Virus record (IMG/VR): IMGVR_UViG_3300035666_002076
Coordinates: 1-28,518 of that record
Length of the DNA stretch: 28,518 nucleotides
Strand: one strand, 5' to 3'
Source: a virus
Shown piece by piece: positions 7,053 through 25,619 of this stretch; the stretch's first letter is position 1, and every line of letters starts with the position of its first letter. The position numbers and the translations under genes were made by a program. Under the pieces are notes generated by a model. The model saw only the letters and a program-made list of their open reading frames with translations. It did not search any database and was not told the origin of the DNA.

Positions 7053-7060
7053 TTTCATCC

Positions 7061-11447: not shown

Positions 11448-12490
11448 TCTTCATCCTTTGATAGTGCACTATTATACGCTTCATCTATGATCCTTGCAAG
11501 AAACTTCTTGTCAATAGACTTTTCCTGAATAGTCTCAAGTTCTTCGTGAAGAAGTTGGAGAGTATCTTTATGGACATCTACCGCCACTAGTTCAGGGTTT
11601 GCAGATACCTCTTCGGTCACTGCCAGTTCTGCCACGCCTGCTTCATAGAACTTATCCATGTATTTTTCAAAACTCGCAGCCTTAGTGCGCTTTTTGATAA
11701 AAATCTTGACATAGCAGTCCTTGAATTTTGAATAGTCAAGTTTTTCTGGTTCGTCTTCATTATAATCAAGCGTATAGAATAGCTTTTTGTTATTTTCGAC
11801 AAATACCAGTTCTCTAGCCAAAAAGTCAAATACGTGGAATCCTTTTGGTTCCCAAACATCTGAGAAAGCCATTTGGTATTGCGTACCCAGATAATAAATA
11901 TTGTCACGAGTGGACTTAATATGATAATGCCCAGTAAGAACGTATTCAAACTTGTCGAAGTGTTTGGGGTCATATCCTTGCTCTATAAAGATACCACGAA
12001 TACTCTGAAAGCCAAATAATTCCAGATGTCCCATAAGAAGGGAGCATGTGGTATTGGTAATAAATTTTGCTGCCTGTCCTTCGTTTTCTGGATTGATCCA
12101 AGGCAAAAGAGCCACACAACCCGCAGAGGTTTGAATCTCGGTAGGTTCAGAATAGATTTCCCAGTTTTGGTATGGTGCAACTAACTCATGTAATGAGTTT
12201 ACATTATTATTATTACGGTAATATGTATCATGGTTACCACAAATAGCAATGCACTTGACTCCCATATCTCTAAGGGGTTCAAAGAAACGGGTTCTTACTT
12301 GGTGAAGCGTTTTGAAATTTATATACTTTCTACGATCAAAAACATCTCCCAGATGGAAGATGGTCTTGATGTTGTTTTCCTTGAGATAAGGAAACAACTG
12401 TTCTTCAAAGAACGATAGAAAGTATTCAAGTACGATAGGTGAGTCTGCTTTATAGCCGAAGTGAGTATCGTTAAGAATTACTGCTTTCAT
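11444..12490 (-). CDS. 47: Recombination nuclease subunit gp47 (SbcD/Mre11-like)
   Basis: gp47 is the Mn-dependent phosphoesterase partner of gp46. Motifs are NDTHFG (7-12), HLGDVFDRR (46-54), CGNHDTYYR (84-92), GHLELFG near residue 155 and TGHYH near 185, which cover the metal ligands of the calcineurin-like fold. I place the start at ATG 12490 ([12 protein letters not shown]) because AGGA lies 5 nt upstream and T4 gp47 also starts just before this motif; a frame 13 codons longer is open but unlikely. The first 20 bases overlap the end of gmd, so gmd is wedged between gene 55 and gene 47 without leaving spare DNA. Length is 348 residues (T4 339). Confidence 0.96.
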
Positions 12491-13511
12491 ATATTCCTGT
12501 TTGTTGTAGAACAAATTCTTTTTTTGCAAGTTTCATATCTTCTTCAATCATCATTTCTGCTAATTGAAATACAGATATCTTTGGTTGCCAATTTAATTTT
12601 TGTCTTGCTTTTGAAGCATCTCCCAAAAGTTCATCCACCTCAGTTGGACGGAAATACTTTGGGTCCACATTGACATATTTTTTATAATCTAATCCAACCA
12701 ATCCAAATGAATAGTCACAAAAATCTCTAACTGAAATCATTTTTCCAGTTGCAATTACATAATCATCTGGAGTATCTTGCTGCAGCATTAACCACATAGC
12801 CTCAACATAATCCCCAGCATAGCCCCAATCTCGTAGTGAGTCTAAATTTCCAAGAGTTAAAGTTGATTGAAGACCACAAGCAATTCTAGTAACTGCTCTT
12901 GTAATTTTACGAGTTACAAAGGTTTCACCACGGCGGGGACTTTCATGATTAAAAAGAATGCCGCAGGAAGCATGCATATCATAACTTTCTCTATAATTTC
13001 TAGTCAAGTAATGTCCGTATACTTTGGCACATCCATATGGAGAACGTGGATAGAATGGGGTAGTTTCTTTTTGGGGAACTTCCATAACTTTTCCAAACAT
13101 TTCACTACTTGATGCTTGATAATACTTTATTTTGTTTCCAGTTATATCTTGGTATTGTCTAATGGCTTCCAATACATTCAATGTACCAACAGCATCGGTA
13201 TTAGTTGTAAAAATTGGCATATCAAATGACAATTGAACGTGACTCTGTGCGCCCAAATTATACACTTCAGTTGGATTATGCTTTATTAAAATATTTGATA
13301 TACTAGTATAATCTGTCAAATCCCCATAATGCAAAAATAACTGTTTATTATGTATTTTTGCATCATTGATTAGATGGTCTATTCTGTCCGTATTAATTGA
13401 AGATGACCTACGAATCAAACCATGTACTTCATATCCTTTTGAAATCAATAAGTCAGCAAGATAGCTGCCATCTTGACCAGAAATTCCTGTAATGAGTGCT
13501 ACTTTTTTCAT
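12471..13511 (-). CDS. gmd: GDP-mannose 4,6-dehydratase
   Basis: The enzyme converts GDP-mannose to GDP-4-keto-6-deoxymannose, the branch point for GDP-fucose, GDP-rhamnose and GDP-perosamine. It is an extended SDR with GISGQDG (9-15), [12 protein letters not shown] (85-96), catalytic SSSE (134-137) and YGCAK (159-163), and the [12 protein letters not shown] segment near 193-204. Length is 346 residues, normal for the family. ATG 13511 overlaps the gp55 stop (ATGA), and the 3' end overlaps gene 47 by 20 bases. A GDP-fucose synthase is not found in the window, although GT10- and GT11-type transferases are. The gene appears less AT-rich than the sugar island and may have a separate history. Phage-borne gmd genes are known from marine myoviruses. 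Confidence 0.94.
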
Positions 13512-14071
13512 ATATCCAATGAATCCTTTTTGACTTTCTTTTTTCTTTTTGTCTTCTTTGGAGTCAACATTTCATCAAATCGTTCCATATCAAGGTCAGT
13601 CAAGCCAAAGAAATCTCTTCTACCAATATCGATTCCTGCATAGGTTTCATTGAACCAGTTATGGAAATCTTTATCATTCTGCTGTTCTGCAAATTTATAC
13701 TGAGTATACTTCTCTCGTTTTTCTTTGTTTATTATACGAACAAAAGAAAACCAGCAAATCTGTGTCAAGTACCCGAATGGGCTTGTAGACTTGCTGGGAT
13801 CAAAGTTGTCAATATATGTGACACAGTTTAAGACTGCATCTGATACCATCTCTTCTCTGTATGGATAATTTGCAAAATTAGGACGATAAGAAAGGCGAGA
13901 TGCAATTTTAAGAATGCATTCGCCTATAAAATCTGGTAACTTTGGTTTTTTACGTCCAGCATTGTCTGCATCGGCAGACTTCTTACGATATTCTACTAAA
14001 GCATCATATAACTCTTGATTACTCACGTAATCGGCATCTGATGCTTTCTTTTTCTTTTTAGGTTGTTTCAC
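13508..14071 (-). CDS. 55: Late-transcription sigma factor gp55
   Basis: gp55 replaces host sigma on RNA polymerase and recognises TATAAATA late promoters, helped in T4 by gp33 and the gp45 clamp. Similarity to T4 gp55 is visible in [17 protein letters not shown] (15-31; T4 YVNNKELLQAIIDW), [20 protein letters not shown] (about 71-90) and [20 protein letters not shown] (about 96-115), which form a reduced sigma region 2. The C-terminus is very basic ([17 protein letters not shown]). The start is GTG 14071, as an in-frame stop lies five codons upstream; no Shine-Dalgarno is clear. It is 187 residues (T4 185). The promoters found in this window are its expected targets. Confidence 0.93.
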
Positions 14072-14101
14072 AAATATAATATATACTCAAACAAATAAAA
14101 A

Positions 14102-14341
14102 TCAATAATTAATTTTTATTTTAATTGTCCCACCATTCGAATGTATTAAATCTGCATTATTAAAATTTTGATACATATTTAATGATTTTAAATATCGTTG
14201 TATAAACAAATTACCAGCAATAAATGGTCTATTTTCAATATCAATAAATGTCATTTTAGATATTATTTTTTTATTTTTATAAAAATCTTCACCGTTACCA
14301 TCACACATTATTAAAGTTGTATTGTTAAAATTAAGAGTCAT
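14102..14341 (-). CDS. Small hypothetical protein (79 aa) at the end of the sugar island
   Basis: ATG 14341 overlaps the last 11 bases of the upstream glycosyltransferase gene in another frame; no Shine-Dalgarno is visible. The protein is Asn/Ile/Lys-rich (MTLNFNNTTLIMCDGNGEDF at the start; NRPFIAGNLFIQRYL in the middle). I do not recognise it. It could be a small independent gene, or the remnant of a longer sugar gene cut down before gene 55. Between its stop and the gp55 start are 30 AT-rich bases, the only non-overlapping junction of notable size in the minus operon. Confidence 0.4.
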   Translation of the reverse strand: MTLNFNNTTLIMCDGNGEDFYKNKKIISKMTFIDIENRPFIAGNLFIQRYLKSLNMYQNFNNADLIHSNGGTIKIKINY

Positions 14342-15068
14342 TTAAAATAAATGTAGAAGATCTATTACCCATTTGATCTGCAAATGCGGCTTTATATTGG
14401 GTATATACATATGAAGGCCAGCATGGGCCAGAAACTCTATATATTTGGCCCAAAATAGACGAGTCTAAATTCATTGTTTGTGGATATGGGTATCTTACCA
14501 AGTTATTTTTAAATAAACTATTTTTATAAATTACCTGGGATCCATCGACTCTGTTTTGTGGATTAATTGGTTCAAAATAATTATTTAAATCATAAAAAGA
14601 TTTATAATTATTTTGTTGTACTTCGGTTCTTGAATTTGAATTTAAATAAAATTCTTTTGATGGGTCATAAAAATAAACTCTATTGTAAAACCATTCTAAA
14701 GATTTATTCTGTTTTATAAAAAAATCTAATTGCAAAAACGAGTCTTTGACCAAAGCATCATCATCACATAATATTGTTGTAAAATCTGCCTCAGAGTTTT
14801 TTATTGCCTCGTTTATATAATGACCATGCGATGATCCACCTTTTTTAATTTTTGTCTCATCTGACTCGTAAATAGCGCTATATTTTACTTTTTTATTGTC
14901 AAAACCATAAGAAAATAAAATATCTTTAAAAGAATCATCTCCTGAATCATCTATAAAATGCAATTCCCAGTTGTCATAGTTTAAATTTTTAATACTGTGT
15001 AGCGCATTTAAAACAATTTTTGGTCTTTTATAGTAAGCCAAAACAATTAAAAATTTTGTATTGCTCAT
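14331..15068 (-). CDS. GT2-like (GT-A fold) glycosyltransferase (245 aa)
   Basis: The N-terminus FLIVLAYYKRPKIVLNALHS (6-25) and LHFIDDSGDD (36-45) are typical of GT-A nucleotide-sugar transferases. The metal-binding motif is CDDD near residue 100, preceded by SSHGHYINEAIKNSEADF. It is a lone catalytic domain without membrane segments, so it would act in the cytoplasm or at the inner membrane face. It starts inside the stop of the SDR gene (ATGA). Donor and acceptor are unknown. The DNA is very AT-rich, like the rest of the island. Confidence 0.75.
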   Translation of the reverse strand: MSNTKFLIVLAYYKRPKIVLNALHSIKNLNYDNWELHFIDDSGDDSFKDILFSYGFDNKKVKYSAIYESDETKIKKGGSSHGHYINEAIKNSEADFTTILCDDDALVKDSFLQLDFFIKQNKSLEWFYNRVYFYDPSKEFYLNSNSRTEVQQNNYKSFYDLNNYFEPINPQNRVDGSQVIYKNSLFKNNLVRYPYPQTMNLDSSILGQIYRVSGPCWPSYVYTQYKAAFADQMGNRSSTFILNDS

Positions 15069-15700
15069 AAACCACCTGATACTTTTATTATACTACCATT
15101 GATGTAAGGCGTTTCAATAATTAAATTAATTATTTTTCCTAAATCTTCACAGTCACCAAAACATTTATTTGGTATTGTATTTTTAACATTTTCTAAAATT
15201 TTTTCTGGAACTTTATATGTTAGACCCCCATCAAAATATCCAAGTTGAATCGTGTTTGCTGTGACATTATATTTTGCATTTTCCATTGCAAAAATTTTTG
15301 TCGCCGTTTCACAAAAAGATTTACAAGAGGTATAGACACACGTACCTTTTATTGGATTTGAAGTCAAAATAGAAGACATGTATATTACTCTTCCACCTGT
15401 ATTTTTCCAATTACTTGCACAAGATTTTAAAACATTTAAATATCCTTTAATGTTTACATTTAAAGAATGTTCCAATTCTTCATCGTTTATATTTGTTATT
15501 AAATTATCATAATTTACTACAGAAAAATATAAAACAATATTTGAATTTTTAATATGTTTATCAACTTCTGAATAATTTCTTACATCACAATCCTTTGAAG
15601 ATAGTGGACTTATTGTATTGGATTTTATATAAGGTATTGTTTTTGATGCAAGACCACTTGAGCCACCAAATATTACAATATTATTATTTTTCAAGTTCAT
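15065..15700 (-). CDS. Short-chain dehydrogenase/reductase (SDR), probable sugar or lipid-sugar reductase (211 aa)
   Basis: The nucleotide-binding motif is GGSSGLA (12-18), the NNxG-type segment NVNIKGYLN lies at 81-89, a catalytic Ser is in MSS (108-110), and YTSCK (123-127) gives Tyr/Lys. This is the classical SDR set, though the family is short here (211 against about 250). I place the start at ATG 15700 since the frame before it lies within the PhyH gene; overlap is then 17 bases. It might reduce a keto-sugar made by one of the dehydratases, but typical fucose and rhamnose synthases are extended SDRs of another type, so the substrate is open. Confidence 0.75.
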   Translation of the reverse strand: MNLKNNNIVIFGGSSGLASKTIPYIKSNTISPLSSKDCDVRNYSEVDKHIKNSNIVLYFSVVNYDNLITNINDEELEHSLNVNIKGYLNVLKSCASNWKNTGGRVIYMSSILTSNPIKGTCVYTSCKSFCETATKIFAMENAKYNVTANTIQLGYFDGGLTYKVPEKILENVKNTIPNKCFGDCEDLGKIINLIIETPYINGSIIKVSGGL

Positions 15701-16559
15701 AAAAATTTTTCGAAGATAGATCTTTTTCTGCAAATTTTCCATACCAAGCTTCGGAGAACATTGGACTAAAATATTTGTCGCATCCCTCAAAATAATAGTG
15801 AGTTACCTGACTATATCTCGATCTATTTGGATCTCTTATAACATCACCACCGTGGATCAAGTTTGCTGCCCAAACCAAAACTTGGCCTTTTTTGCAAACA
15901 AATGTTTTTTGCTCCATTTTTTTAGTTTCAACCAATTGTCTTACAAATTCTTCATACTCAGCGTAGCTGTCAAATTGTTTTCCATATTCTGGAGCTTTTA
16001 TTTTTAAATCATAAAAATCAAATATTGGCAATTTATGACTCTTAGGAACAAAAATTAGAGACCCATTGTTTTCATCCATGTCTTCCAAAGCAACCCAAGC
16101 AGCAGCCAACCATCTATGTGGCATGGAGTGAAAATGTAAAACATCACTATGAAGTGGCTGGTTGCTTCCATAATTAAATGTTATTGTTTGGAAAGGAAGT
16201 GGTTTTTTTTGATAAAGAGTTGTTAAAAAATTAAGTATTTTTTTATTTAAAGACAGCGATCTTAATAATTTACTTTGTTTCCAGCCTTCAAATATTCTTT
16301 TTCCCTTCGAATAATGATAACCAGATTCTTGTGTCTTAGTTTCATCTTTATTGTTTATTTCATCAATTTCATTTTTAAATTGTTCTAATTCTTCATCGGA
16401 TAAATTTAAATCTAAAACCACATACCCATCTTCGTGAAATTGAACAGCCAAATCTTGTTCTTCTTTTGATAAATTTTGTGTTTTTAATAGGTCATAAAAA
16501 AACGGCGATTCACACCAAGGCCAATTTGTTGATTCAATTTGCGTTTGATACTTTTTCAT
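15684..16559 (-). CDS. PhyH-family Fe(II)/2-oxoglutarate oxygenase (291 aa)
   Basis: The iron-binding HxD is HSD (137-139) and the distal His is in LIHGGDV (His236), with Arg246 or Arg248 placed to hold 2-oxoglutarate. Flanking segments (FHEDGYVVLD at 41-50; WVALEDMDENNGSLIFVPKS at 155-174) are characteristic of the phytanoyl-CoA dioxygenase superfamily. Members hydroxylate lipids, amino acids and sugars. In a sugar cluster it may hydroxylate a lipid or sugar building block, though the substrate cannot be predicted. AGGA sits before ATG 16559, which directly follows the stop of the acyltransferase gene. All three iron ligands are intact, so the enzyme is likely active. Confidence 0.87.
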   Translation of the reverse strand: MKKYQTQIESTNWPWCESPFFYDLLKTQNLSKEEQDLAVQFHEDGYVVLDLNLSDEELEQFKNEIDEINNKDETKTQESGYHYSKGKRIFEGWKQSKLLRSLSLNKKILNFLTTLYQKKPLPFQTITFNYGSNQPLHSDVLHFHSMPHRWLAAAWVALEDMDENNGSLIFVPKSHKLPIFDFYDLKIKAPEYGKQFDSYAEYEEFVRQLVETKKMEQKTFVCKKGQVLVWAANLIHGGDVIRDPNRSRYSQVTHYYFEGCDKYFSPMFSEAWYGKFAEKDLSSKNFYELEK

Positions 16560-17126
16560 TTATTTTTTCCTCAAAAATGCTGGATCTACTGATTTATTTA
16601 GAACAGTGTTACGATTTCTTTCTTTGTGTTTTTTTAAAGGATTTCCTAACCATATACTCCATGGTGATAAATTGTTTTTGGTGTAAACAAAGCTTTTTGC
16701 TCCTATCAAACAACCTTCTGGTATTTTTACATCCGGCATTACAATTACGTCTGATGCAACTCCAGAAAAATCATTAAAAACAATGTCTCCTCTAAAAATT
16801 TTATTTTGTCCCCAATAATCATTAACGGGCCCATAGTCACCGCTATAATCTTCAGATGCACAAAATAACTTGGAGCCATAACCAACAAAACACCAACTTC
16901 CGAGAGTTATTGTATGTTCTTTCCCCCCACTCAAAACGGAGTGGGAACATATTTGAATATTATTTCCAGTTTTTAATCCTGTAGTTATCCAAGTAAAAGG
17001 ATCTATTCTAACATTATCCCCCAGATAAACTAGTTTAGGGTTTGCAAATAAAACGTTTTGTCCTATAAAAACATTTTGACCACAATAACCTAAATGTTTT
17101 TTTATTTCTTCATTCCATCCCAGCAT
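16560..17126 (-). CDS. Left-handed beta-helix (hexapeptide-repeat) acyltransferase (188 aa)
   Basis: The protein shows hexapeptide-type repeats (NVFIGQNVLF, LVYLGDNVRI, NNIQICSHSVLSGG, VKIPEGCLIGAKSFV) and ends its helix with the LGNPLKKHKERN segment usual in these O- or N-acetyltransferases. HSVLSGGKEHTI contains the likely catalytic His region. I choose ATG 17126 (MLGWNEEIKKHLGYCGQ), overlapping the methyltransferase end by 17 bases, instead of an upstream in-frame start that would lie wholly inside that gene. Such enzymes act as trimers on nucleotide-sugars, for example N-acetylating the amino group placed by a DegT-type aminotransferase, which is encoded three genes upstream. Confidence 0.85.
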   Translation of the reverse strand: MLGWNEEIKKHLGYCGQNVFIGQNVLFANPKLVYLGDNVRIDPFTWITTGLKTGNNIQICSHSVLSGGKEHTITLGSWCFVGYGSKLFCASEDYSGDYGPVNDYWGQNKIFRGDIVFNDFSGVASDVIVMPDVKIPEGCLIGAKSFVYTKNNLSPWSIWLGNPLKKHKERNRNTVLNKSVDPAFLRKK

Positions 17127-17802
17127 AAGTAATCTCGTATATATGGTGTTCGTGATTGTTTGCAGCAACAAATATTGAATGTTTTTTTAAATTTAAATTA
17201 TTTTGTTTACAATAGTCAATTAAATGTTTTTCTTTTATAAAACTAATTCCATAAAAATTATCCCATATATCGGGTAAATAATCTATTAATTTGTCTTCGT
17301 CTGATATAAAACAAGAAAAAATTATGCTTGCATTTTTATTTTTTTTAAAAACATTTTTTAAATTATTTAAAATTTTATGTATTTCATTCACAGGTAAGTG
17401 TGTAAAAACAGATATCAAAACAATTATATCAATTTTTTTATTTAAAACTTCTTTTAAATTTTCATCTATAGTACCAAAATAAAGTCTTTCATCATTTAAA
17501 TATTCTTTAGCTAAGTTTAAACGTTTATTTCCGTGACTTGAATTTGTATCTAAACCGTAATAAAAAAAATTTTTTAATCTTTCACTAATAAAATTTCCTA
17601 AAATTCCAGCACCGCATCCGTAATCCAACACACAAATTCCGTCAATAAATTTATTTTTTATTGGTTCTAAAAAATAACTCATACCTATAGAAGCCAGCGG
17701 TTCTTCATTTGTTCCACCATATAATATTTTAGGAGGAACTTCTATTATTGGTTTTTGAGTTTTATTTTTCCAAAAATTATTCCATATTTTATCTTGAATC
17801 AT
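17110..17802 (-). CDS. Class I SAM-dependent methyltransferase (230 aa)
   Basis: The SAM-binding motif I is VLDYGCGAGILG (58-69), followed by YGLDTNS (acidic residue of motif II) and a VFTHLP-type segment near 132-137. The fold is Rossmann type without membrane segments. The start ATG 17802 overlaps the preceding stop as ATGA. In this context it may methylate a sugar hydroxyl, amine or carboxyl, as FkbM- or O-antigen-type enzymes do. The C-terminus (HHIYEITYAGME) is unremarkable. Substrate is unknown. Confidence 0.83.
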   Translation of the reverse strand: MIQDKIWNNFWKNKTQKPIIEVPPKILYGGTNEEPLASIGMSYFLEPIKNKFIDGICVLDYGCGAGILGNFISERLKNFFYYGLDTNSSHGNKRLNLAKEYLNDERLYFGTIDENLKEVLNKKIDIIVLISVFTHLPVNEIHKILNNLKNVFKKNKNASIIFSCFISDEDKLIDYLPDIWDNFYGISFIKEKHLIDYCKQNNLNLKKHSIFVAANNHEHHIYEITYAGME

Positions 17803-18536
17803 ATTCCAACTCTATATAAAAAAGGTTTGCTTAAATTTTCTTCTGTAACATACTGAGGTACATTTTGGCACTGATGTTTTTTATAATTTTGTGCCAAAGG
17901 AGAAAAAGACGGATGATTTACAATTTTAAATCCAGCTCTCTTTATACAATTAGTGAATTCTACTTCTGATCCTTCGTAAGCCGCATAATCTGTACTATGA
18001 AAATATCTTAACTTATTTGTGGACGGATCTTTTACAACATTTTTTAAAATATAATTTGTTGCTACACCAAACCCGCCTCCAGCGTGTGGTATTGATGAAA
18101 AAGATATTGGTGAAAAAGAAATAAATCCCAAATTATTATCAATTTTAAATAAAAAATCAACCTCTTCCATATAATTTGGATGAAAAATTGTTATATCATC
18201 TTCATTAAAAATGTAATAATTATACCTGTCTTCGGTTAAGCTATATCCACGAGAAAAAGCTCCAAATGAACCTCCGACATTTTCTCTGTGAGTAACGTAA
18301 ATTTTTCCATTTTTTATTTTTTTATTGTTAAAAGAATTTATAAAATTTTTTGATTCTTCTCTCCCATCATCATTATTAACAATCAAAACATCCATTTTTA
18401 TTCCTGGATCTATATTTGATTCTATTTCATTTAATGAATAATTTAAATATTCTTTTGTTTGTTCGTAAGAAGAAAAATTATTATTATTTTGTCTTCGTGG
18501 ACCCAAATAAGTTGCTATAATTTTTAAACAGCTCAT
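17799..18536 (-). CDS. Glycosyltransferase, GT2-like (245 aa)
   Basis: ATG 18536 overlaps the aminotransferase stop by one base (TAATG) with AGGG upstream; a TTG two codons earlier is less likely. KIIATYLGPRRQNN opens the protein, MDVLIVNNDDGREESKNF (about 48-65) resembles GT-A strand 2, THRENVGGSFGAFSRGY (about 82-98) matches the loop of GT2-type proteins, and FNEDD (about 109-113) is the DxD-like metal site. PHAGGGFGV follows near residue 150. This pattern is found in phage and bacterial surface glycosyltransferases. Donor sugar is unknown. Confidence 0.75.
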   Translation of the reverse strand: MSCLKIIATYLGPRRQNNNNFSSYEQTKEYLNYSLNEIESNIDPGIKMDVLIVNNDDGREESKNFINSFNNKKIKNGKIYVTHRENVGGSFGAFSRGYSLTEDRYNYYIFNEDDITIFHPNYMEEVDFLFKIDNNLGFISFSPISFSSIPHAGGGFGVATNYILKNVVKDPSTNKLRYFHSTDYAAYEGSEVEFTNCIKRAGFKIVNHPSFSPLAQNYKKHQCQNVPQYVTEENLSKPFLYRVGI

Positions 18537-19699
18537 TACCAACCCTTTTTAATGCAGTCTACAATATATTCTCTCTGTTCTTGGGTTACCCACCATCCAA
18601 CTGGGATAGAAATTACTTTACCTATAGTTTTATCCAATTGCGGTAAAAAACTTTTGTATTCTTTAACACAAGTGTGTTTGTCATTTCTTTCGTGTACTTG
18701 AGAAACAATTATTCCACAATTTTTCATGTGTTGTATAAATCCATCTCTATTTTCTACAAGCATGCTGTAGATCCAAAATGCCGATTCTCTTTCTGCATGT
18801 CTTGTTAAAAGACTTACGCCGGAAATATTTTGGAGATGTTCGTCGTAAAATTTGGCATTGTTTTTATGGGCTGACAATATTTGATCTGCGTGTTTTAAAT
18901 TTTCAATACCAACTGTAGCGCAGACATCATTCATGTGAAACTTAAATCCCCATTCTTTAATATCTGCTTCGCATCTAAAATCTTTTCTATTATCGTTTCT
19001 ATCTATTCCATACCATCTAAGCAATTTAGCCCTTTCTTCGGATTGCTTTGATGGCACAACTAAAAGACCACCATCTACCGTTGTTATATGTTTTATTGCT
19101 TGAAAACTATACATAACCATGTTTCCATGGTTTCCTAAAAATTTTCCTTCGTACTTAGAGCCAAATGCATGTGCACCATCTTCAATTATTGCGGGTGCGT
19201 AACCGTATAATTTTTTACAATTTTCTTGTATTTTTTTTAATCTATTTAAATCATTGGGATACCCACCCCAGTGTACAACAATAATTGCTTTTGTTTTTGG
19301 GGATATTTTTCTTTCTAAATCATCCAAATCCATGTTTAATGTACTTGGGTCAATATCAACCCATTTTAATTTAATATTATTTGCTAAAATAGGAAAATTA
19401 GAAGCAGTACAAGTTAAAGACGTTGTTAATATTTCATCATTTTCTTGTATTCCAGGCCAATAATCGGTATCTTGAAAAACTGCAGGATTTTTTAGCATGT
19501 GTATAGCTAAATGTAGTGCGGAAGTGCCTGTATTTGTTGTAACCACATTTGAACAATTTAAATAATTTTTTAAATTTGATTCAAATTCTTCTACTTTTTG
19601 TCCTTGTCCGATAAATCCGCAGTTTAATACTTTTCCAACTTCTTCAGCAGCAGTTGGTGCCATAAAAACTTTAAAAAGTGGTATATTTTGTGTATCCAT
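18536..19699 (-). CDS. DegT/DnrJ/EryC1/StrS-family PLP aminotransferase (387 aa)
   Basis: These enzymes put an amino group on keto-deoxy sugars bound to a nucleotide. The sequence shows TTNTGTSALHLAI (54-66), the PLP-ring acid in IIEDGAHAFGSKYEGK (171-186, Asp174) and the Schiff-base lysine in SFQAIKHITTVDGG (Lys203). Length is typical. ATG 19699 has AGGA 7 nt upstream and follows the dTDP-glucose dehydratase gene by one base. That neighbour suggests a dTDP-4-keto-6-deoxyglucose-derived substrate; GDP-4-keto-6-deoxymannose from gmd (giving perosamine) is a second option. Sequence alone cannot tell them apart. Confidence 0.92.
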   Translation of the reverse strand: MDTQNIPLFKVFMAPTAAEEVGKVLNCGFIGQGQKVEEFESNLKNYLNCSNVVTTNTGTSALHLAIHMLKNPAVFQDTDYWPGIQENDEILTTSLTCTASNFPILANNIKLKWVDIDPSTLNMDLDDLERKISPKTKAIIVVHWGGYPNDLNRLKKIQENCKKLYGYAPAIIEDGAHAFGSKYEGKFLGNHGNMVMYSFQAIKHITTVDGGLLVVPSKQSEERAKLLRWYGIDRNDNRKDFRCEADIKEWGFKFHMNDVCATVGIENLKHADQILSAHKNNAKFYDEHLQNISGVSLLTRHAERESAFWIYSMLVENRDGFIQHMKNCGIIVSQVHERNDKHTCVKEYKSFLPQLDKTIGKVISIPVGWWVTQEQREYIVDCIKKGW

Positions 19700-19700
19700 A

Positions 19701-20699
19701 TTATAATCCTATCCATTTTTTATTATCAAGAGACCATTTAACTAATTGATCTATAGACTGTTCCAAATTATTTTTTGGAACCCAACCCATTTTAGCCATT
19801 TTTTCTCCATCTAAACCATATCTAAGATCGTGGCCCGGTCGGCTAGTATGAAAATCAACTAGTTCATATACAAGTTCTTTGCCTACGCAATTGGCTATCA
19901 TTTTTGCTAAAGTTAAATTATCTACTTCTTTTTCTCCAACAATATTGTATTTTTCTGCAGTTTTTCCATTTTTAAGCAAAAAATCTACGGCATTGCAAAC
20001 ATTTTTTGCATGAATATAAAATCTGCTTCCTGCTTTTGTTAAATTTTTATTTGAATGAATATAAAGTTTATTTCCCAAATAAGAATTTTTAATACAAAGT
20101 GGAATATATTTTTCTGGATGTTGTCTTTCTCCAAAGACATTCATGCAATGTGTTATCATAATTGGCATTTTGTATGTATTTTCAAATGCTACACAAAGCT
20201 CTTCGCCTCCAGCTTTAGAAGCAGAATAAGGGTTGCCGGAATTATACCTGTCATTTTCTTTGTAATTTACGCCTTCTGGCGCAGGTCCAAATACCTCATC
20301 AGTTGAAAAATAAATAAAGTTTTTTAAATTTTGTTGTTTTCTTGCAAAATTTAAAATATTACACGTACCAACAACATTATCCATAACAAAAAGCATTGGA
20401 TCTTCAATTGATCTGTCTACGTGAGAAGATGCGCCCAAATGCAGTACGGTGTCAATATTACCTATTGTATTTTTTAAAATTTCATTATTATGAAATTCTG
20501 ATTTCATATCATGCCAAACAAAAGTAATTCTATTTTTGTTTTTTTCCCAATTTGGTAATTCTGTTAGCCGATTTAAATTTCCAGAAACATCTAAACGATC
20601 TAAAATTACAACATCGCAGTCATCATTTTCTAGCAAATATTCGACCATATGATGGCCAATAAATCCACACCCACCAGTTACAAGAATTCTATTACGCAT
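19701..20699 (-). CDS. rfbB: dTDP-glucose 4,6-dehydratase-like nucleotide-sugar dehydratase
   Basis: An extended SDR with GGCGFIG (9-15), the TDE triad typical of dTDP-glucose dehydratases (STDEVFG, 132-138), YSASK (158-162) and the RfbB-like PEKYIPLCI (195-203). It would form a 4-keto-6-deoxy sugar for the aminotransferase next to it. Length is 332 residues, normal for RfbB. ATG 20699 has AAAGGA upstream and overlaps the previous stop by 8 bases. No nucleotidyltransferase (RmlA) is in the window, so the dTDP-sugar would come from the host or elsewhere in the phage. A UDP-sugar epimerase or dehydratase is a possible alternative. Confidence 0.87.
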   Translation of the reverse strand: MRNRILVTGGCGFIGHHMVEYLLENDDCDVVILDRLDVSGNLNRLTELPNWEKNKNRITFVWHDMKSEFHNNEILKNTIGNIDTVLHLGASSHVDRSIEDPMLFVMDNVVGTCNILNFARKQQNLKNFIYFSTDEVFGPAPEGVNYKENDRYNSGNPYSASKAGGEELCVAFENTYKMPIMITHCMNVFGERQHPEKYIPLCIKNSYLGNKLYIHSNKNLTKAGSRFYIHAKNVCNAVDFLLKNGKTAEKYNIVGEKEVDNLTLAKMIANCVGKELVYELVDFHTSRPGHDLRYGLDGEKMAKMGWVPKNNLEQSIDQLVKWSLDNKKWIGL

Positions 20700-21387
20700 T
20701 TATATTTTCCTTTGAGTATTTTAATATACAGTATTCTGTTTCAAATGCAAGTTTATTTTGATGAGTATTTTGCATCTGCGTATCATGCAAACGATTGCAG
20801 ATAAGCTGATCTTCTATAATGTAAGGATCACCAAATTTTTCATATAATTGTTTGTAAATATCACAGTCCATGAGCATGATTAATTTTTCATCAAAATAAT
20901 GTTTTCCTTTAAAAGTCAACACACTAGGAGAACTAATAGTATTTATACCCAAATGCATGTTTTTGTTATAATAAGGTATAAATGGTCTAAACATCATATG
21001 TATGTTTTTACAGTGCATGGAGCCGTTTACCAACCAGTTACATGATTTATTTTTAAATTCTTCGTAAATTTTTTTTATAGAATTTTCATCTACAAAAAAA
21101 TCGTCACCAAACATTATTTTTATAATTTCAGAAGAACAATTTTTTATTGCAATATTTGCATTTACTGAATTACTTCTTTCTGTTCCTTTTGAATTTATAT
21201 ATTTTAAATTCAAAAAACTAGAATAATAATTACACAATTCCTTTATGTTATCATCCGTGCTTTGATCGCTGACTACTACTTCTATATTTTTTTCTGTTTG
21301 TTTTATTATGCTGTTAAGCAACTCTGATAAATAAAGCCAACCATTTCCGTGGGATTCGTAAGTTGGTATTGCTATTGATATTTTCAT
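20692..21387 (-). CDS. GT2-family glycosyltransferase (231 aa)
   Basis: ISIAIPTYESHGNGWLYLSE (3-22), IKQTEKNIEVVVSDQSTDDN (28-47) and the FGDDFF metal site (about 93-98) are standard GT2 features. A single catalytic domain, no membrane segments. ATG 21387 overlaps the stop of the GT10-type gene by one base (TGATG). It contains an internal TATAAATA, which I treat as chance. Acceptor unknown. Confidence 0.88.
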   Translation of the reverse strand: MKISIAIPTYESHGNGWLYLSELLNSIIKQTEKNIEVVVSDQSTDDNIKELCNYYSSFLNLKYINSKGTERSNSVNANIAIKNCSSEIIKIMFGDDFFVDENSIKKIYEEFKNKSCNWLVNGSMHCKNIHMMFRPFIPYYNKNMHLGINTISSPSVLTFKGKHYFDEKLIMLMDCDIYKQLYEKFGDPYIIEDQLICNRLHDTQMQNTHQNKLAFETEYCILKYSKENINA

Positions 21388-22160
21388 CAGTTTTCTTCCA
21401 ATATTTTTATTAATGAATACATTGGTGAAATATTTTGCTCCAATGCTTTATAATAATTTTCTTTAACTGCTTCTATTTTGTTATTATAATCCAAATAACT
21501 CAAAGAACAAATATCATTCAAGTCTTTTATTCTTAAAATACCGGCTTCATTAAAGATATTATCAACCGTTGATGCACCCCAATATATTGGTATTGTACAA
21601 GTTAAAAAACAGTCTAAAAGTTTTTCAGTAAACCAAGAATTGGTATCATCATTTTCAATAGCAATTGAAAAACAATAATCTTTCAATCCTTCAATCTTAT
21701 TTTCTATTTCTTTAAACCCACGACCATATAAATCTACACATGGTGGAAGATTATTTATTATATTACGTCTAATTTGATGGCCCAATGTAAAATTTTTATT
21801 TGATGAAATCATACTAATTAGTTTACTTTTAATAGGCATAAAAGTTGGCGTCTGTATCCAAGATGACATGGATGGATGCATGTATTTCACAAAAGCAAGA
21901 GTTTGTAATTCATCTATGCATGTGTATACAATAATATTATTATTAATATAATAAGTAATATTATTTTTAATTTCTTCTATTGTATTTTTTATAATTGCTG
22001 GAGATTCATGTAACCAAATTATATTTTTTTTATTTGGTATAATATTTTGGCAATTTATAGAAAGTGCAATGTCTTTATTGCATAATTGTGGGTGTGTTTG
22101 TTTTAACTGTTTGTATAAAACCTCCCAACAAGGATCTGTTCCAAATATAGTGAGACTCAT
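21387..22160 (-). CDS. GT10-type (alpha-1,3/1,4-fucosyltransferase-like) glycosyltransferase (257 aa)
   Basis: The signature of GT10 enzymes is clear: a CFSIAIENDD-type stretch (about 163-172), FTEKLLDCFLTCTIPIYWGA (177-196), and VDLYGRGF upstream (about 142-149). GT10 members move fucose from GDP-fucose; some bacterial relatives use other GDP- or nucleotide-deoxy sugars. ATG 22160 overlaps the GT11 stop as ATGA; a TTG four codons upstream is less likely. Together with the GT11-type gene and gmd it points to fucose-like sugars. No membrane segment. Confidence 0.87.
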   Translation of the reverse strand: MSLTIFGTDPCWEVLYKQLKQTHPQLCNKDIALSINCQNIIPNKKNIIWLHESPAIIKNTIEEIKNNITYYINNNIIVYTCIDELQTLAFVKYMHPSMSSWIQTPTFMPIKSKLISMISSNKNFTLGHQIRRNIINNLPPCVDLYGRGFKEIENKIEGLKDYCFSIAIENDDTNSWFTEKLLDCFLTCTIPIYWGASTVDNIFNEAGILRIKDLNDICSLSYLDYNNKIEAVKENYYKALEQNISPMYSLIKILEEN

Positions 22161-22945
22161 ATTATAATCCAATTTTTACAATAAATATCTGACCAATTTT
22201 TTGGCATTCCTGGAGCAGAACCAAACCAGCTTGATGGAGCAATAACTTTTTTTGAATTGCTTAGCCAAGCACCCCACCAACTAAAGCTGCTATTGGCTAA
22301 TATATGATAATTGCACATAGTCATAACACACATATCAATATATTTGTTTCTGGTATCTGGATATACTATAGGACGTTTTAAATCTTTTAAAAGACTTTCT
22401 GTTTTTTCTATATCATCACTAAAAACAAAAATTAATCCATTTTCTGGCAAGATTGACAATGCTTCGTTATAATAATCAATGGTGCAAGGTGGATAATTTT
22501 GTGGCTGGGAAACATAATCACCAAATCTCATATGCAACGAAATTGCAGGACATTTGGCCACAGCTCGTATATAATCTGCTTGCTGTTTAATTTCCGATTT
22601 AAATTCAAATTCTCTTAATAACTGTTCACGATAATCTATAAAATATTTTTCACTTTGAAAATATCCACATATATCTGTATTATCTGGTATTCCAAAGATG
22701 CCTGCATTATATGTAAAATTACGTTCCATTGCAGAGTGCACTGAAACTACATTTGATGAATCTTTGGCAGAAAGATTATTAAAACAATTTGGTAAAAAAA
22801 AGTTTTGAAATTCTATATTTCCCGTATTTGAATACGGAACACCAAATTCATATCCTCTTGTTTTGGCAATGGAATATAATGTTGCATATTGAAACAATTG
22901 ATTGCCAAATAAACCATAAGTCCCCAGTCTATTAAAAGTAATCAT
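22157..22945 (-). CDS. GT11-type (alpha-1,2-fucosyltransferase-like) glycosyltransferase (262 aa)
   Basis: N-terminal RLGTYGLFGNQLFQYATLYS (6-25) is the usual GT11 opening (GNQLFQYA). The donor-binding motif HMRFGDY (138-144) matches HxRxGDY of fucosyltransferases using GDP-fucose. NSSFSWWGAWLSN (218-230) is the second family motif. Length is near the family average. ATG 22945 overlaps the GT25-type stop as ATGA. With GT10 it implies a double-fucosylated or Lewis/H-like structure, but a GDP-fucose synthase was not found here. Confidence 0.93.
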   Translation of the reverse strand: MITFNRLGTYGLFGNQLFQYATLYSIAKTRGYEFGVPYSNTGNIEFQNFFLPNCFNNLSAKDSSNVVSVHSAMERNFTYNAGIFGIPDNTDICGYFQSEKYFIDYREQLLREFEFKSEIKQQADYIRAVAKCPAISLHMRFGDYVSQPQNYPPCTIDYYNEALSILPENGLIFVFSDDIEKTESLLKDLKRPIVYPDTRNKYIDMCVMTMCNYHILANSSFSWWGAWLSNSKKVIAPSSWFGSAPGMPKNWSDIYCKNWIII

Positions 22946-23577
22946 AGATAGGAAGAATCCTTATCTTCTAAACAGCTATCTGTAAAAAATTGCCATTTAT
23001 TGGCAGATTCTCTGTTATCTGATTGATAGAAATATGGTTTGTTTGGTGTATAAACTTTTTTATAAAATTGTACTGATGCTGCTCCAATATCCCATGGTTG
23101 TTTTAAATCCTCAATACAGTGAATTGCTGCTTGCACCATTTCTTTTCTGTAATCTGGTGTAATATACAAAATAGCATGAGTTGCCAAGATTCCACCAACT
23201 CTCATATAGTCTGGTGTGTATCTTTTAGTTTGGTAACCCCGGTTACCACTTGATACACCAAGATATATGCCGTCTGAGTCATCAGGAATATCAATAATTG
23301 GATTAAACACTTCAGAAAATTCTGCATCATCTTCTAAAATTAGAAGTGGAGTAGAATACTGATCGTCAGCCAAAATATCAATATGAGATTGAGCACAACC
23401 AACATAATGTGCATTACTTGGAATAGTTCCTTCTGGGGCTGGAATTATTCTTGCTGACTTTCTGTAGGTTTTTTTGAAACCGTGTTTGTTTAACCGTTCT
23501 TGCATAACTTCTGCATTTTTTGTTGCAGAATCTAAATTTATCCATACGACTGGTATTTCACGTAAATCAATAATCAT
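22942..23577 (-). CDS. GT25-like glycosyltransferase (LOS/LPS type, 211 aa)
   Basis: PVVWINLDSATKNAEVMQER (9-28), GCAQSHIDILADD (60-72) and LLILEDDAEF (78-87) follow the pattern of GT25 galactosyltransferases that build lipooligosaccharide (INLD-x-R; GC-x-x-SH; LEDD). It is the first gene of the minus operon. GAGG lies 4 nt before ATG 23577, and the sigma70-like promoter at 23592-23619 is directly upstream. It probably adds a core or O-chain hexose. The C-terminus (SCLEDKDSSYL) overlaps the GT11 gene by four bases. It lacks the full length of animal GT25 relatives, as expected for bacterial forms. Confidence 0.8.
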   Translation of the reverse strand: MIIDLREIPVVWINLDSATKNAEVMQERLNKHGFKKTYRKSARIIPAPEGTIPSNAHYVGCAQSHIDILADDQYSTPLLILEDDAEFSEVFNPIIDIPDDSDGIYLGVSSGNRGYQTKRYTPDYMRVGGILATHAILYITPDYRKEMVQAAIHCIEDLKQPWDIGAASVQFYKKVYTPNKPYFYQSDNRESANKWQFFTDSCLEDKDSSYL

Positions 23578-23591
23578 AAGACCTCACAATA

Positions 23592-23619
23592 AATATAATA
23601 CATCATATAAAGATGTCAA
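23592..23619 (-). promoter_or_regulatory. Sigma70-like promoter driving the sugar island
   Basis: On the minus strand: -35 TTGACA (23614-23619, perfect), 16-nt spacer, -10 TATATT (23592-23597). The likely start near 23585 lies 8 nt before ATG 23577, with GAGG between. No obvious MotA box was seen. Confidence 0.65.
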
Positions 23620-23628
23620 GTTATTTAG

Positions 23629-23656
23629 TTGACTTTTTCCTAAGGTACTTTATACT
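23629..23656 (+). promoter_or_regulatory. Sigma70-like promoter driving uvsY
   Basis: -35 TTGACT (23629-23634), 16-nt spacer, -10 TATACT (23651-23656). The expected start is about 3 nt before ATG 23666, and no Shine-Dalgarno is in range. Its -35 lies 9 bp from that of the divergent promoter. Confidence 0.6.
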
Positions 23657-23665
23657 ACAACCCAA

Positions 23666-24103
23666 ATGAATCTAGAAGACCTCAAGAATAATATTACTAA
23701 AGATTCCCAAATAGACTCTACAGAATTAGGTGTAGAGGCTCTTAAGATACCTCAAGTACACGCCAAGTATCTTAATATGCTTACAGACTTTAAATTGCTT
23801 TTGACCAAACACCAGAATGAATATGCAATTCAACGATTGCGTAAGTGGAAAATTTTGACTGGTAAAGCATCCAAAGAAGAATTGGAAGCATGGGGAGAAG
23901 AACCGTTTGATTTGGATCTACTCAAAACTGATGTAGAAAAATTTATTGATGGTGATCCTAAGATTGTTGAATTGAAGTCTAAAGTGGCTGTCAACGAAAT
24001 TAAAGTAAAGATGGTTGAGGAATTTTTAAAGGCTATCAATAACCGAAACTTCAATATCAAGTCTGCCATTGACTGGCAAAAAATGATGAACGGCATAGTA
24101 TAA
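23666..24103 (+). CDS. uvsY: Recombination mediator UvsY
   Basis: UvsY loads the UvsX recombinase on gp32-coated single-stranded DNA in T4. The N-terminus MNLEDLKNNITKDSQIDSTE parallels T4 MRLEDLQEELKKDVFIDSTK, which also fixes the start at ATG 23666. The C-terminus (FLKAINNRNFNIKSAIDWQK) parallels T4 ALDAIKSRGFAIKHIQDM. Length is 145 residues (T4 137). It is the first gene of a plus-strand pair with uvsW, separated by 7 nt, and is divergent from the sugar island. uvsX itself is not in the window. Confidence 0.94.
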   Translation: MNLEDLKNNITKDSQIDSTELGVEALKIPQVHAKYLNMLTDFKLLLTKHQNEYAIQRLRKWKILTGKASKEELEAWGEEPFDLDLLKTDVEKFIDGDPKIVELKSKVAVNEIKVKMVEEFLKAINNRNFNIKSAIDWQKMMNGIV

Positions 24104-24106
24104 ATA
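24099..24106 (+). promoter_or_regulatory. Exact TATAAATA 4 nt before the uvsW GTG
   Basis: Exact late consensus whose TAA is the uvsY stop codon. With T4 geometry the start site would fall at or just inside the uvsW start codon. It may be a leaderless late promoter, matching the late expression of uvsW in T4, or chance. Confidence 0.35.
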
Positions 24107-24110
24107 TTAT

Positions 24111-25619
24111 GTGGATATTGAAGTTGAATCTGTAGATGAAGTTCGTTACTACATCAAAGCAGAAAAAGGAATCAAGCAAGAATTACGAGATTATTTCTCG
24201 TTTATGGTACCCGGTGCCCAATATATGCCCATGTTCAAACGGCGTATATGGGATGGAAAGATCCGGTTATATGATATCCTCACATCCACTCTTCCACGCG
24301 GATTAAAAACTTATCTTGATAAGTTTTCTCAAGATCGTAAATACTCATTAAATATTAAAGAGAATAGGAATCCTTTATGTATAAAGGAAACACAGCTTGC
24401 TCAATTCTACGATACCCTAGCGGTGTCGGTGAAAAAGAAGCCCGTGCAGATGCATGCCCATCAGCAGCAAGCAATTATTCATGCTTTGAACCATCACAGA
24501 TGCGTATTGATTTCTCCTACTGGTTCGGGCAAAAGTTTGATAATCTACGTCTTGGTCCGGTTTCTTCAATCCGTCTTATCGCCAAATCGAAAGATTTTGA
24601 TTCTCGTACCAACCGTTGGTCTCGTGAATCAGATGGATTCTGATTTTTTTGATTATTCTTCCCGAGATCCATCTTGGTCTTGCAAAAAATATATTCATAA
24701 AATTTCAGCCGGCGTGAATAAAGATACTAATAAGCAGATAGTAGTCTCTACATGGCAGTCAATATACAAACTACCAAGAGAGTGGTTTGACCAGTTTGAT
24801 GCTATCTTCTTTGACGAGTGCCATCAGGCCAAAGCCGAATCTATTAACATGATTGGCCAAAAACTTGCCAAGGCTTGGTTTCGTATTGGTACAACAGGAA
24901 CACTAGACCAAGCACAGGCACATCGACTGAGTATCGAAGGTATCCTTGGTCCCGCTATTCAGTTCATTCAAACAAAGAACTTAATGAACAAAGGATTGCT
25001 TGCCACTATTGGAATCGACTGTATTCTGTTACAGTATACAGACGAAGAAAAGCAGTTGCTCAAGAAGCAAAAATACCCTGACGAATTAAAGTGGATTATA
25101 ACTAATAATAAGAGGAACGAATTTGTCAAAGAACTTGCCCTCAAAACCAAAGGCAACACGCTCGTCCTCTTCAATTACGTCGAAGATCACGGAAAGCCTC
25201 TCGCCGCTCTCTTGGAGTCAGCAAAAAGCGGTAGACCAATATATTTCATCTCTGGAAAAACAGAAGCAGACACAAGAGAATATATTAGAAAAGTCGTTGA
25301 TACGGAAAGAGATGCTATACTGGTTGCGAGTTATGGCACTACTAGCGCTGGTATCAACATTGTTAATATCGACAATATTATTTTTGCCTCGCCTACTAAA
25401 TCTATAATTAGATTGTTACAGAGCATTGGTCGTGGTCTAAGAGTATCTGCAAAAAAGAAGACTCTCAAAGTTTTTGACATTGTAGATGATCTATGCTGGC
25501 TGAAACACAAGAACCATATCTTTCGTCACTTTGAAGAACGTATAAAAATATACAAAAAAGAAAAGTTTGACCATAAGATCTTTTCTATGTCTTTAAAAGA
25601 CAGCATAAAAGATAAATAA
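24111..25619 (+). CDS. uvsW: UvsW recombination DNA/RNA helicase
   Basis: UvsW unwinds branched DNA and R-loops, shifting T4 from origin-dependent to recombination-dependent replication. Sequence shows the N-terminal DNA-binding domain (LRDYFSFMVPGAQYMPMFKR, 25-44; WDGKIRLYD, 47-55), Walker A PTGSGKS (136-142), DECH (235-238) and motif VI QSIGRGLR (437-444). Length is 502 residues (T4 587 after correction of the old annotation, here shorter at the end). The start is GTG 24111, fixed by similarity to T4 MDIKVHF. There is no Shine-Dalgarno; a TATAAATA sits 4 nt upstream, too close for a normal leader. T4 uvsW is expressed late. Confidence 0.95.
   Translation: MDIEVESVDEVRYYIKAEKGIKQELRDYFSFMVPGAQYMPMFKRRIWDGKIRLYDILTSTLPRGLKTYLDKFSQDRKYSLNIKENRNPLCIKETQLAQFYDTLAVSVKKKPVQMHAHQQQAIIHALNHHRCVLISPTGSGKSLIIYVLVRFLQSVLSPNRKILILVPTVGLVNQMDSDFFDYSSRDPSWSCKKYIHKISAGVNKDTNKQIVVSTWQSIYKLPREWFDQFDAIFFDECHQAKAESINMIGQKLAKAWFRIGTTGTLDQAQAHRLSIEGILGPAIQFIQTKNLMNKGLLATIGIDCILLQYTDEEKQLLKKQKYPDELKWIITNNKRNEFVKELALKTKGNTLVLFNYVEDHGKPLAALLESAKSGRPIYFISGKTEADTREYIRKVVDTERDAILVASYGTTSAGINIVNIDNIIFASPTKSIIRLLQSIGRGLRVSAKKKTLKVFDIVDDLCWLKHKNHIFRHFEERIKIYKKEKFDHKIFSMSLKDSIKDK
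25611..25618 (+). promoter_or_regulatory. Late-promoter-like octamer GATAAATA
   Basis: GATAAATA overlaps the uvsW stop and lies 22 nt before ATG 25641. The spacer holds a strong AGGGAGGA ribosome site, so this geometry is conventional. Confidence 0.4.

Follow-up and report, generated by a model that had tools for sequence, protein, structure and literature searches.

Sugar-gene clusters in phages are usually interpreted as tools for altering host lipopolysaccharide (LPS), without proof. A cluster of this kind in a 28,518-nucleotide stretch of viral DNA (IMG/VR record IMGVR_UViG_3300035666_002076; hereafter, the window) raises the question of which surface such genes change, that of the host or that of the virion.

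A sugar-gene cassette between gp55 and uvsY

The window comes from a T4-like phage (exo-T4/Kyanoviridae-like), with gp23, uvsY, uvsW, gp55, gp44/62/45/46/47 and regA as its core genes. Megablast against phage isolates gave no match, and protein searches were therefore used instead; the nearest isolates are Kyanoviridae, at 42-53% amino acid identity. Positions 14102-23577, in a slot between gp55 and uvsY with uvsW and gp23 also nearby, hold 12 enzyme ORFs and one short ORF on the minus strand, nearly all touching or overlapping:

22942-23577, minus: GT25-family glycosyltransferase (Pfam GT25 E 5e-4, weak by sequence; fold strong, AF2 pLDDT 92.7)
22157-22945, minus: GT11, alpha-1,2-fucosyltransferase-like (Pfam E 1.7e-21; phrog_2644 E 6e-73; PDB search without match)
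21387-22172, minus: GT10, fucosyltransferase-like (Pfam E 1.8e-8)
20692-21387, minus: GT2 glycosyltransferase (Pfam E 7.5e-14)
19701-20699, minus: dTDP-glucose 4,6-dehydratase, RmlB-like (Pfam E 3e-55; top PDB matches dTDP-glucose 4,6-dehydratases, E 2e-59)
18536-19699, minus: DegT/DnrJ/EryC1 aminotransferase of the TDP-4-keto-6-deoxyglucose 4-aminotransferase (viosamine-forming) type (Pfam E 4.5e-72)
17799-18542, minus: probable GT-A glycosyltransferase (no Pfam match; NEDD motif by eye; 79% identical copy in locus L057; predicted structure at pLDDT 31, no reliable fold)
17110-17802, minus: SAM methyltransferase (Pfam E 4e-10)
16560-17171, minus: hexapeptide N-acyltransferase (nearest solved relative 3vbi-3vbp, E 2.6e-17, residues 20-190)
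15684-16559, minus: PhyH-type 2-oxoglutarate dioxygenase (Pfam E 2.5e-21; PDB phytanoyl-CoA dioxygenase E 3e-8)
15065-15700, minus: SDR, FabG-like 3-oxoacyl reductase type, VioR-like (Pfam E 2e-18; phrog_3142 FabG-like); an ATG at about 15700 is probably its start, rather than the listed ORF start at 15790
14331-15068, minus: GT2 glycosyltransferase (Pfam E 1e-8)
14102-14341, minus: 79-aa ORF at the gp55 end (no family match; a single weak relative in locus L088)

The Pfam families represented are GT25, GT11, GT10, two GT2, a GDP_Man_Dehyd/Epimerase-type dehydratase, DegT, methyltransferase, hexapeptide acyltransferase, PhyH and SDR. Together with the minus-strand layout, they bear out an earlier note on this DNA, which had described a twelve-gene sugar island in the T4 core, divergent from uvsY. 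Its count holds for the enzyme genes, with the 79-aa ORF, possibly a remnant, in addition; its gene list stands once extended by Gmd beyond gp55, also sugar-type and relevant, and by a conserved GT2 gene (5826-7058). The surroundings are as follows:

12471-13511, minus: Gmd, GDP-mannose 4,6-dehydratase, between gp55 and gp47 (Pfam E 6e-140; PDB Gmd E 1e-130; GC3 21%)
13508-14071, minus: gp55 late sigma factor, one slot edge (phrog_234 E 3.5e-50)
23578-23665, no strand: putative divergent promoter region of uvsY and the cassette
23666-24103, plus: uvsY, the opposite slot edge (Pfam UvsY E 7e-25)
26309-26836: gp3 homologue

The cassette is AT-rich (GC 25-33%, GC3 11-24%, against a GC3 of 31-43% in flanking core genes). 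Its location is unusual among the isolates inspected. In the five T4-like isolates inspected (P-SSM2, P-SSM4, S-CAM7, HTVC008M and Melnitz), uvsY-uvsW-T4GC139-gp55 are contiguous and co-directional, and none has a sugar slot between gp55 and uvsY; in the window, by contrast, the uvsY-side block is inverted and cut off from gp55 by the cassette. A limited literature search found no paper describing this slot. The class of phage glycan cluster was already known, as the note had said: the sugar ("LPS") clusters of the T4-like cyanophages P-SSM2, S-CAM7 and DSL-LC02 likewise hold Gmd, epimerases, GT2, GT11 and PhyH, the two that were checked are nearly free of hydrophobic stretches, and P-SSM2 and S-CAM7 carry a GT25 relative 31-34% identical to that of the window. 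These clusters lie elsewhere, near hli genes (P-SSM2, DSL-LC02) or after the primase/MazG region (S-CAM7).

The region between uvsY and the cassette contains two TTGAC boxes placed back to back (GTCAA-CTAAATA-TTGAC), their -10 boxes pointing outward, and a late-promoter-like (C/A)TAAATA motif toward the cassette; CTAAATA also occurs upstream of gp23, at 28405. The promoter-region columns are invariant in a 20-locus alignment, though the genes behind them differ, and the motif is retained in every locus. The sequence directly upstream of gp55 carries a sigma70-like promoter of its own, and the slot is thus flanked on both sides by conserved promoter-like sequences. A sigma70-type promoter is predicted to face the cassette, which suggests that the cassette is expressed early in infection in addition to late. 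A pure virion role would not need such early expression, which counts against it.

Exchange of cassettes among related phages

Variability of the slot was judged from contigs, using 80 related IMG/VR loci, all metagenomic. Among 19 loci whose uvsY is at least 96.5% identical, 14 different cassettes were present, and uvsY identity did not correlate with cassette sharing (Spearman 0.012, p 0.69, 1176 pairs). Matches at the DNA level stop at gene edges, with breakpoints at about 14071 and 23572. Conversely, a cassette stretch of more than 6.6 kb is 100% identical between L034 and L047, whose uvsY/uvsW DNA is 70-78% (~76%) identical. Most inner cassette genes of the window are 79-93% identical to those of L057 against 72% for uvsY, and the DNA match skips the methyltransferase gene, which is missing from the otherwise matching L057 cassette. 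The slot is thus a swap site at which cassettes are exchanged by recombination at gene edges, decoupled from core relatedness. The "specific gene set" suggested earlier did not survive this comparison, as the slot is hypervariable and has no fixed set. Its most constant gene is GT25, first or second in 63 of 74 loci.

Chimeric contigs could mimic such swapping, given that the relatives are all metagenomic and conserved uvsY ends could seed misjoins. However, individual cassettes turn up repeatedly, in separate records and with different backbones (L034/L047; L021/L023/L024; L007/L008), every locus has the promoter motif, and annotated slot contents are almost all sugar-type genes; we regard an assembly artefact as barely credible. 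A bacterial donor of GT25 was also sought: the sole close match (60%) belongs to L113, a phage contig that had been binned with Chitinophagaceae and has uvsW-uvsY beside its GT25. As this match is itself phage and the others are at 27-35%, neither donor nor host can be named.

Cassette products look soluble

The earlier note favored rebuilding of host O-antigen or capsule. A hydropathy test found no polytopic protein among 654 ORFs from 81 slots, while E. coli wzx and wzy scored 9 and 6 in the same test. Flippase PF01943 and priming transferase PF02397 were absent from 24 related records, no polymerase was found in the slots, and the hydropathy test, used by itself for PF00953 and ABC exporters, revealed none. 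By sequence, then, the slot products look soluble. These results speak against O-antigen or capsule rebuilding, and the note's alternative, decoration of virions, fits better.

The same features set the slot apart from its bacterial and temperate-phage counterparts. It resembles bacterial O-antigen/capsule serotype loci (galF-gnd in E. coli) in its fixed flanks, exchangeable AT-rich sugar genes and decoupling from core phylogeny, but is viral, lacks Wzx/Wzy, exporter and priming transferase, and encodes soluble-looking enzymes only. The Gtr serotype-conversion operon of temperate phages comprises the membrane flippase GtrA, the bactoprenol glucosyltransferase GtrB and a polytopic Gtr, whereas the phage slots hold no polytopic protein.

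Sequential transferases of the lipooligosaccharide (LOS) outer core are soluble or peripheral and rely on the host's own exporter, and the absence of Wzx/Wzy is therefore still compatible with remodeling of the host surface. The main rival reading is that soluble transferases act on the LOS outer core or another lipid-linked glycan that the host exports, for example excluding competitor phages or keeping progeny off debris. GT25, GT11, GT10 and Gmd are family names typical of LOS/O-antigen work, a sigma70-type promoter would permit early expression, and hypervariability also suits phage-phage competition. Host remodeling is also the published interpretation for related pelagimyophage clusters (PMC7029224). 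The hypervariable host-recognition cluster of these T4-like phages likewise contains glycosyltransferases (PMC7029224). It is a metaviromic island, a kind of locus that under-recruits reads while its flanks recruit at about 99%. That region is a tail-fibre cluster, whereas the slot is a separate gp55-uvsY site of mainly sugar genes. Given that polytopic proteins, flippases and priming transferases were missing from the slots and from the 24 records, we consider host remodeling rather unlikely.

GT25, a conserved GT2 and collagen-like fibres

Two further observations argue against host remodeling: the constant GT25 is, in its predicted structure, closest to collagen transferases, and the same phages have collagen fibres adjoining a conserved GT2. 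The GT25 model has the GT25 fold with an acidic LEDD motif, and its best Foldseek matches are mimivirus R655 and the human collagen galactosyltransferase COLGALT1, at TM-scores of only about 0.6, which favor a fold family, not a substrate. GT25 enzymes also build bacterial LOS/LPS, which counts against a fibre role. The fibre region of the window contains:

5826-7058, minus: conserved GT2 (phrog_13126, beta-1,4-glycosyltransferase) beside fibre genes, 66-99% identical in 14 of 24 related records
2272-3966, minus: collagen-like tail-fibre protein with 51 Gly-X-Y triplets (Pfam Collagen E 8e-26; phrog_5073)
1730-2254, minus: small protein with a brief Gly-X-Thr segment resembling collagen (GNTGATGATG run; Pfam Collagen E 8e-4)

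The latter two products are candidate glycan acceptors. Collagen fibres come after the conserved GT2 in 13 of the 14 records holding it. In relatives they are often Thr-rich at position Y, as in two phages that also have a duplicated conserved GT2 (597/657 and 294/323 triplets); the main fibre of the window is instead Gln/Lys-rich at Y, and the giant fibre of L112 is Gln-rich (483/709). Collagen glycosyltransferases attach sugar to hydroxylysine or Thr within Gly-X-Y repeats. Hydroxylysine-type modification of Lys, as in animals, is not supported, since no PF13640 hydroxylase was detected in the 24 records.

The conserved GT2 might modify fibres while an unrelated gp55-uvsY cassette acts on the host. 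Some 7 kb lie between the two blocks, one conserved and the other variable, yet both look like soluble glycosyltransferase systems, on the same strand, and no direct evidence sets them apart. Two separate systems seem to us quite improbable.

Predicted sugar chemistry

The window enzymes resemble those of the viosamine/anthrose route, with GDP-fucose supply. A 4,6-dehydratase, a 4-aminotransferase and an N-acyltransferase, as this pathway requires, occur together at the sequence level in one cluster. The top PDB matches of the aminotransferase are 4xau/4zwv (E 6e-115) and CalS13 4zas (E 4e-105), with ArnB, QdtB and perosamine synthase far weaker; 3vbi-3vbp, nearest to the acyltransferase, we take to be the anthrose-pathway enzyme AntD from B. 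cereus. From their families, the dehydratase, 4-aminotransferase, AntD-like acyltransferase, FabG-like SDR, PhyH and methyltransferase may produce a viosamine (anthrose-like) cap that is N-acylated and perhaps also methylated. Gmd would make GDP-4-keto-6-deoxymannose toward GDP-fucose, for use by GT11 and GT10; the window contains no fucose synthase, and no VioS/ACP partner was seen in it.

Pathways for deoxyaminosugars and fucosyl groups with N-acylation have little in common with known DNA modifications. Glycosylation of phage DNA against restriction, as by the T4 alpha/beta-glucosyltransferases, is known from T4-like phages, and PhyH and methyltransferases could in principle modify bases. 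However, dCMP/dUMP hydroxymethylases of the thymidylate synthase family (PF00303) were absent from the 24 records, which reach 136 kb and may all be fragments, and this explanation is very unlikely.

The viosamine/anthrose islands for Pseudomonas syringae flagellin, which carries viosamine (PMC3927599), and the Bacillus collagen-like protein BclA share with the window the dehydratase, a VioA/CalS13-type aminotransferase, an AntD/VioB-type acyltransferase, a VioR-like reductase, a methyltransferase and glycosyltransferases. The window cassette differs in being phage-borne, in lacking VioS or an acyl-carrier protein, and in its extra PhyH and added fucosyltransferases. Mimivirus, with its 12-gene glycan cluster and the collagen-modifying enzymes L230, R655 and R699, likewise combines a virus-encoded viosamine pathway, GT25-type collagen transferases and collagen-like surface proteins (PMC9614988, PMC9546862), the viosamine cluster, collagens and L230 being described in PMC9614988. 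Mimivirus is a eukaryotic giant virus, and the phage records differ from it in the missing PF13640 hydroxylase; the likeness is probably convergent and implies no recent common cluster.

A putative virion-glycosylation system

On our best reading, which we judge an even call, the slot of these T4-like phages holds an exchangeable cassette that glycosylates virions and is comparable to a serotype locus. Virion proteins would receive their sugars in the cytoplasm; the downstream collagen-like fibres beside the conserved GT2 may be the likeliest acceptors, a weaker step. The constant GT25 would start or extend a shared core, with the outer sugars set by whichever genes are swapped in, and the particle surface would vary accordingly. 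More tentative is a true phage serotype system, in which a lineage-exchanged locus under a common promoter changes the fibre glycan, here a fucosylated chain with an N-acyl-viosamine cap, which would resemble, by convergence, the fibrils of mimivirus and collagen glycans of the anthrose type.

Wholesale swapping in near-identical phages, soluble-looking enzymes and the co-occurrence of fibres with the conserved GT2 make the target directly testable. If virions are decorated, phages would vary their surfaces much as bacteria do through serotypes, and one would have to ask what selects for such a system. It would also offer an extensive natural collection of glycosyltransferases and of enzymes for rare sugars.

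A sugar-gene cassette between gp55 and an inverted uvsY-uvsW block

Judged from its gene content (regA, gp62, gp44, gp45, gp46, gp47, gp55, uvsY, uvsW, a gp3-like gene and gp23), the source of the 28.5-kb record is a T4-like phage. The features considered here are as follows.

5826-7058, conserved GT2 transferase
12471-13511, Gmd
14102-23577, minus strand, sugar-gene island (cassette)
23666-26312, uvsY-uvsW-25641 block

The gp55-uvsY gap ("slot") is taken up by minus-strand ORFs, 12 for enzymes and one of 79 aa, most of which run a few bases into their neighbors. Our family assignments agree with the enzyme list of an earlier note. The island has a GC content of 25-33% and a GC3 of 11-24%, against a GC3 of 31-43% in the flanking core genes. 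Gmd, on the far side of gp55, has an island-like GC3 (21%) and is also part of the sugar gene set. Its ORF shares 59 bases with the listed gp47 ORF and 4 with gp55, and some relatives (e.g., L006 and L021) have no Gmd at this position; the site therefore appears to be another, small site of exchange.

In the five T4-like isolates inspected (P-SSM2, P-SSM4, S-CAM7, HTVC008M, and Melnitz), gp23-gp3-uvsY-uvsW-(T4GC139)-gp55-gp47-gp46 is essentially contiguous on one strand, with small genes at most in between. None has a sugar-gene slot between uvsY and gp55, which fits the earlier note's suggestion that this place may be new, and cyanophage clusters with related genes are sited elsewhere in the genome. 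Unlike in these cyanophage, pelagiphage and Methylophilales phage isolates, the uvsY-uvsW-25641 block of the window and of the relatives fetched lies in reverse orientation to gp23 and gp55, with the cassette in the gap between gp55 and this block. Two relatives (L025 and L071) have the gp3-like gene on the opposite strand, and L026 and L071 carry a uvsY-uvsW insertion of about 600-760 bp.

Cassettes are exchanged wholesale

Scanning IMG/VR with uvsY yielded 114 relatives, and the analysis covers the 80 best; all are metagenomic fragments, with a small chance of chimeric contigs among them. The slot is hypervariable. It measures 6.4-9.9 kb in all relatives where gp55 is reached and exceeds 10 kb in others, and the 654 ORFs of 81 slots clustered into 133 families. 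Among 19 loci with a slot of at least 5 kb and a uvsY at least 96.5% identical to that of the window, we found 14 distinct cassettes. Across 1176 pairs, uvsY identity did not predict the share of cassette genes with at least 70% identity (Spearman 0.012, p 0.69), a descriptive figure because the pairs are non-independent.

The alignments indicate that cassettes are exchanged by recombination, with breakpoints at the edges of genes. The DNA of the relatives ceases to match the window at gp55 (about 14071-14124); in L005, L006, L011, and L017 the match begins again where the first cassette gene starts (23572-23577), and in other relatives at GT11/GT25. Two loci from different metagenomes, L034 and L047, have cassettes 100% identical over more than 6.6 kb (one 200-base bin at 99%), with identity dropping to 70-78% in uvsY/uvsW. 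The uvsY of L057 is just 72% identical to that of the window, yet this locus has a near-complete window cassette, with inner genes 79-93% identical, GT10, GT11, and GT25 lower, and the methyltransferase absent. The same uvsW-uvsY-GT25-GT11 arrangement occurs on a phage contig in a Chitinophagaceae MAG (L113, JAFMEV010000049.1), which was probably mis-binned or came from an infecting phage and hints only weakly at a host.

Putative promoters and a leading GT25 are largely constant

The uvsY/cassette intergenic region is 88 bp long. Two back-to-back -35-like boxes, GTCAA-(C/A)TAAAT-...-TTGAC, are kept at every locus inspected, and both boxes and a TATANT box facing the cassette are invariant in 20 aligned representatives. 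The cassette-facing sequence, TTGACA-16-TATATT, is a putative sigma70-type promoter. Overlapping it is a (C/A)TAAATA motif, similar to one upstream of gp23, that by analogy with T4-like phages may be a late promoter. Since gp55 has its own sigma70-like promoter directly upstream, cassettes could be replaced without disturbing it. In 63 of 74 loci a GT25 gene occupies the first or second position, usually with GT11 after it; the remaining loci start with family 6, a Gly_transf_sug-type transferase, or family 18, which has no Pfam match.

Predicted chemistry

The protein encoded at 19701-20699 matches dTDP-glucose 4,6-dehydratases (E 2e-59). The closest matches of the DegT protein (18536-19699) are 4xau/4zwv (E 6e-115) and CalS13 (E 4e-105), which we take to be sugar 4-aminotransferases; ArnB, perosamine, and QdtB enzymes score much worse. 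For the acyltransferase the match is 3vbi-3vbp (E 3e-17), labeled galactoside O-acetyltransferase in the PDB and presumably AntD of the anthrose pathway. With its FabG-like SDR and methyltransferase, the cassette resembles in enzyme types the vioA-vioM-vioB-vioR viosamine island of P. syringae (PMC3927599), whose vioS and acp it lacks. Gmd (E 1e-130) would fit GDP-fucose supply to GT10/GT11; the window has no fucose synthase. Together these enzymes are predicted to make a fucosylated glycan that carries an N-acylated viosamine-like sugar.

Other cassettes encode NeuB, UDP-GlcNAc 2-epimerase, UDP-glucose/GDP-mannose dehydrogenase, and FkbM methyltransferases, and the sugars therefore probably differ from phage to phage. 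A NeuB-family synthase with a cupin domain inside one cassette (L020:1296-2804) suggests a nonulosonic (sialic-like) acid. Another cassette includes a RuBisCO-like protein (L054:3206-4402; Pfam RuBisCO_large, E 2e-36).

Host surface or virion fibers as possible acceptor

With a 19-residue hydropathy window, 5 of the 654 slot ORFs had one hydrophobic stretch and none had two, compared with nine in E. coli rfbX (wzx) and six in wbbH (wzy); each of the 15 P-SSM2 cluster genes scored zero. In 24 related records, neither Polysacc_synt (Wzx) nor Bac_transf (priming) had a match, whereas the controls did. The lack of multi-stretch ORFs and of such matches argues against a self-contained O-antigen/capsule system. 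In its operation the slot is comparable to a serotype locus, with exchangeable cassettes at a fixed site; it is not a bacterial-type O-antigen locus, because export and priming functions were searched for and not found. Rebuilding of host O-antigen or capsule, as proposed in the earlier note, is not the leading reading. Alternatively, soluble transferases may act on host LOS.

Other observations bear on the virion, the earlier note's second proposal. In fold comparison, the GT25 model (pLDDT 92.7) comes closest to the putative collagen transferase R655 of mimivirus (E 2e-8; PMC9546862) and to human COLGALT1 (E 2e-6), both with a TM of about 0.6; bacterial transferases rank behind. The window phage encodes collagen-like fiber proteins downstream. 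The conserved GT2 is present in 14 of 24 related records, and 13 of these 14 have Collagen matches; in the remaining one, the contig ends 3.5 kb from GT2. At the eight loci read out, collagen-like ORFs start within about 0.5-3 kb downstream of GT2. Glycosylated Thr in Gly-X-Y repeats occurs in Bacillus BclA and vent-worm collagen. In the giant fibers of two phages, Y is Thr in about 91% of triplets (597 of 657 and 294 of 323); each of these phages (L105:7850-14981 and L106:8488-19462) carries a second, tandem GT2 copy about 60% identical to that of the window. Counting against fibers as the acceptor, the window's main fiber and the L112 giant fiber (L112:4765-14802; 3345 aa, Gln at Y in 483 of 709 Gly-X-Y triplets) are Gln-rich at Y. 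Virion fibers are the leading candidate acceptor, with chances that we consider about even.

The island is real and of a broad class, phage sugar clusters, already known. Within reach of the searches made, three things are new: a fixed slot at gp55-uvsY, cassettes that are swapped as whole units in near-identical phages with a shared promoter, and a link to collagen-like fibers.
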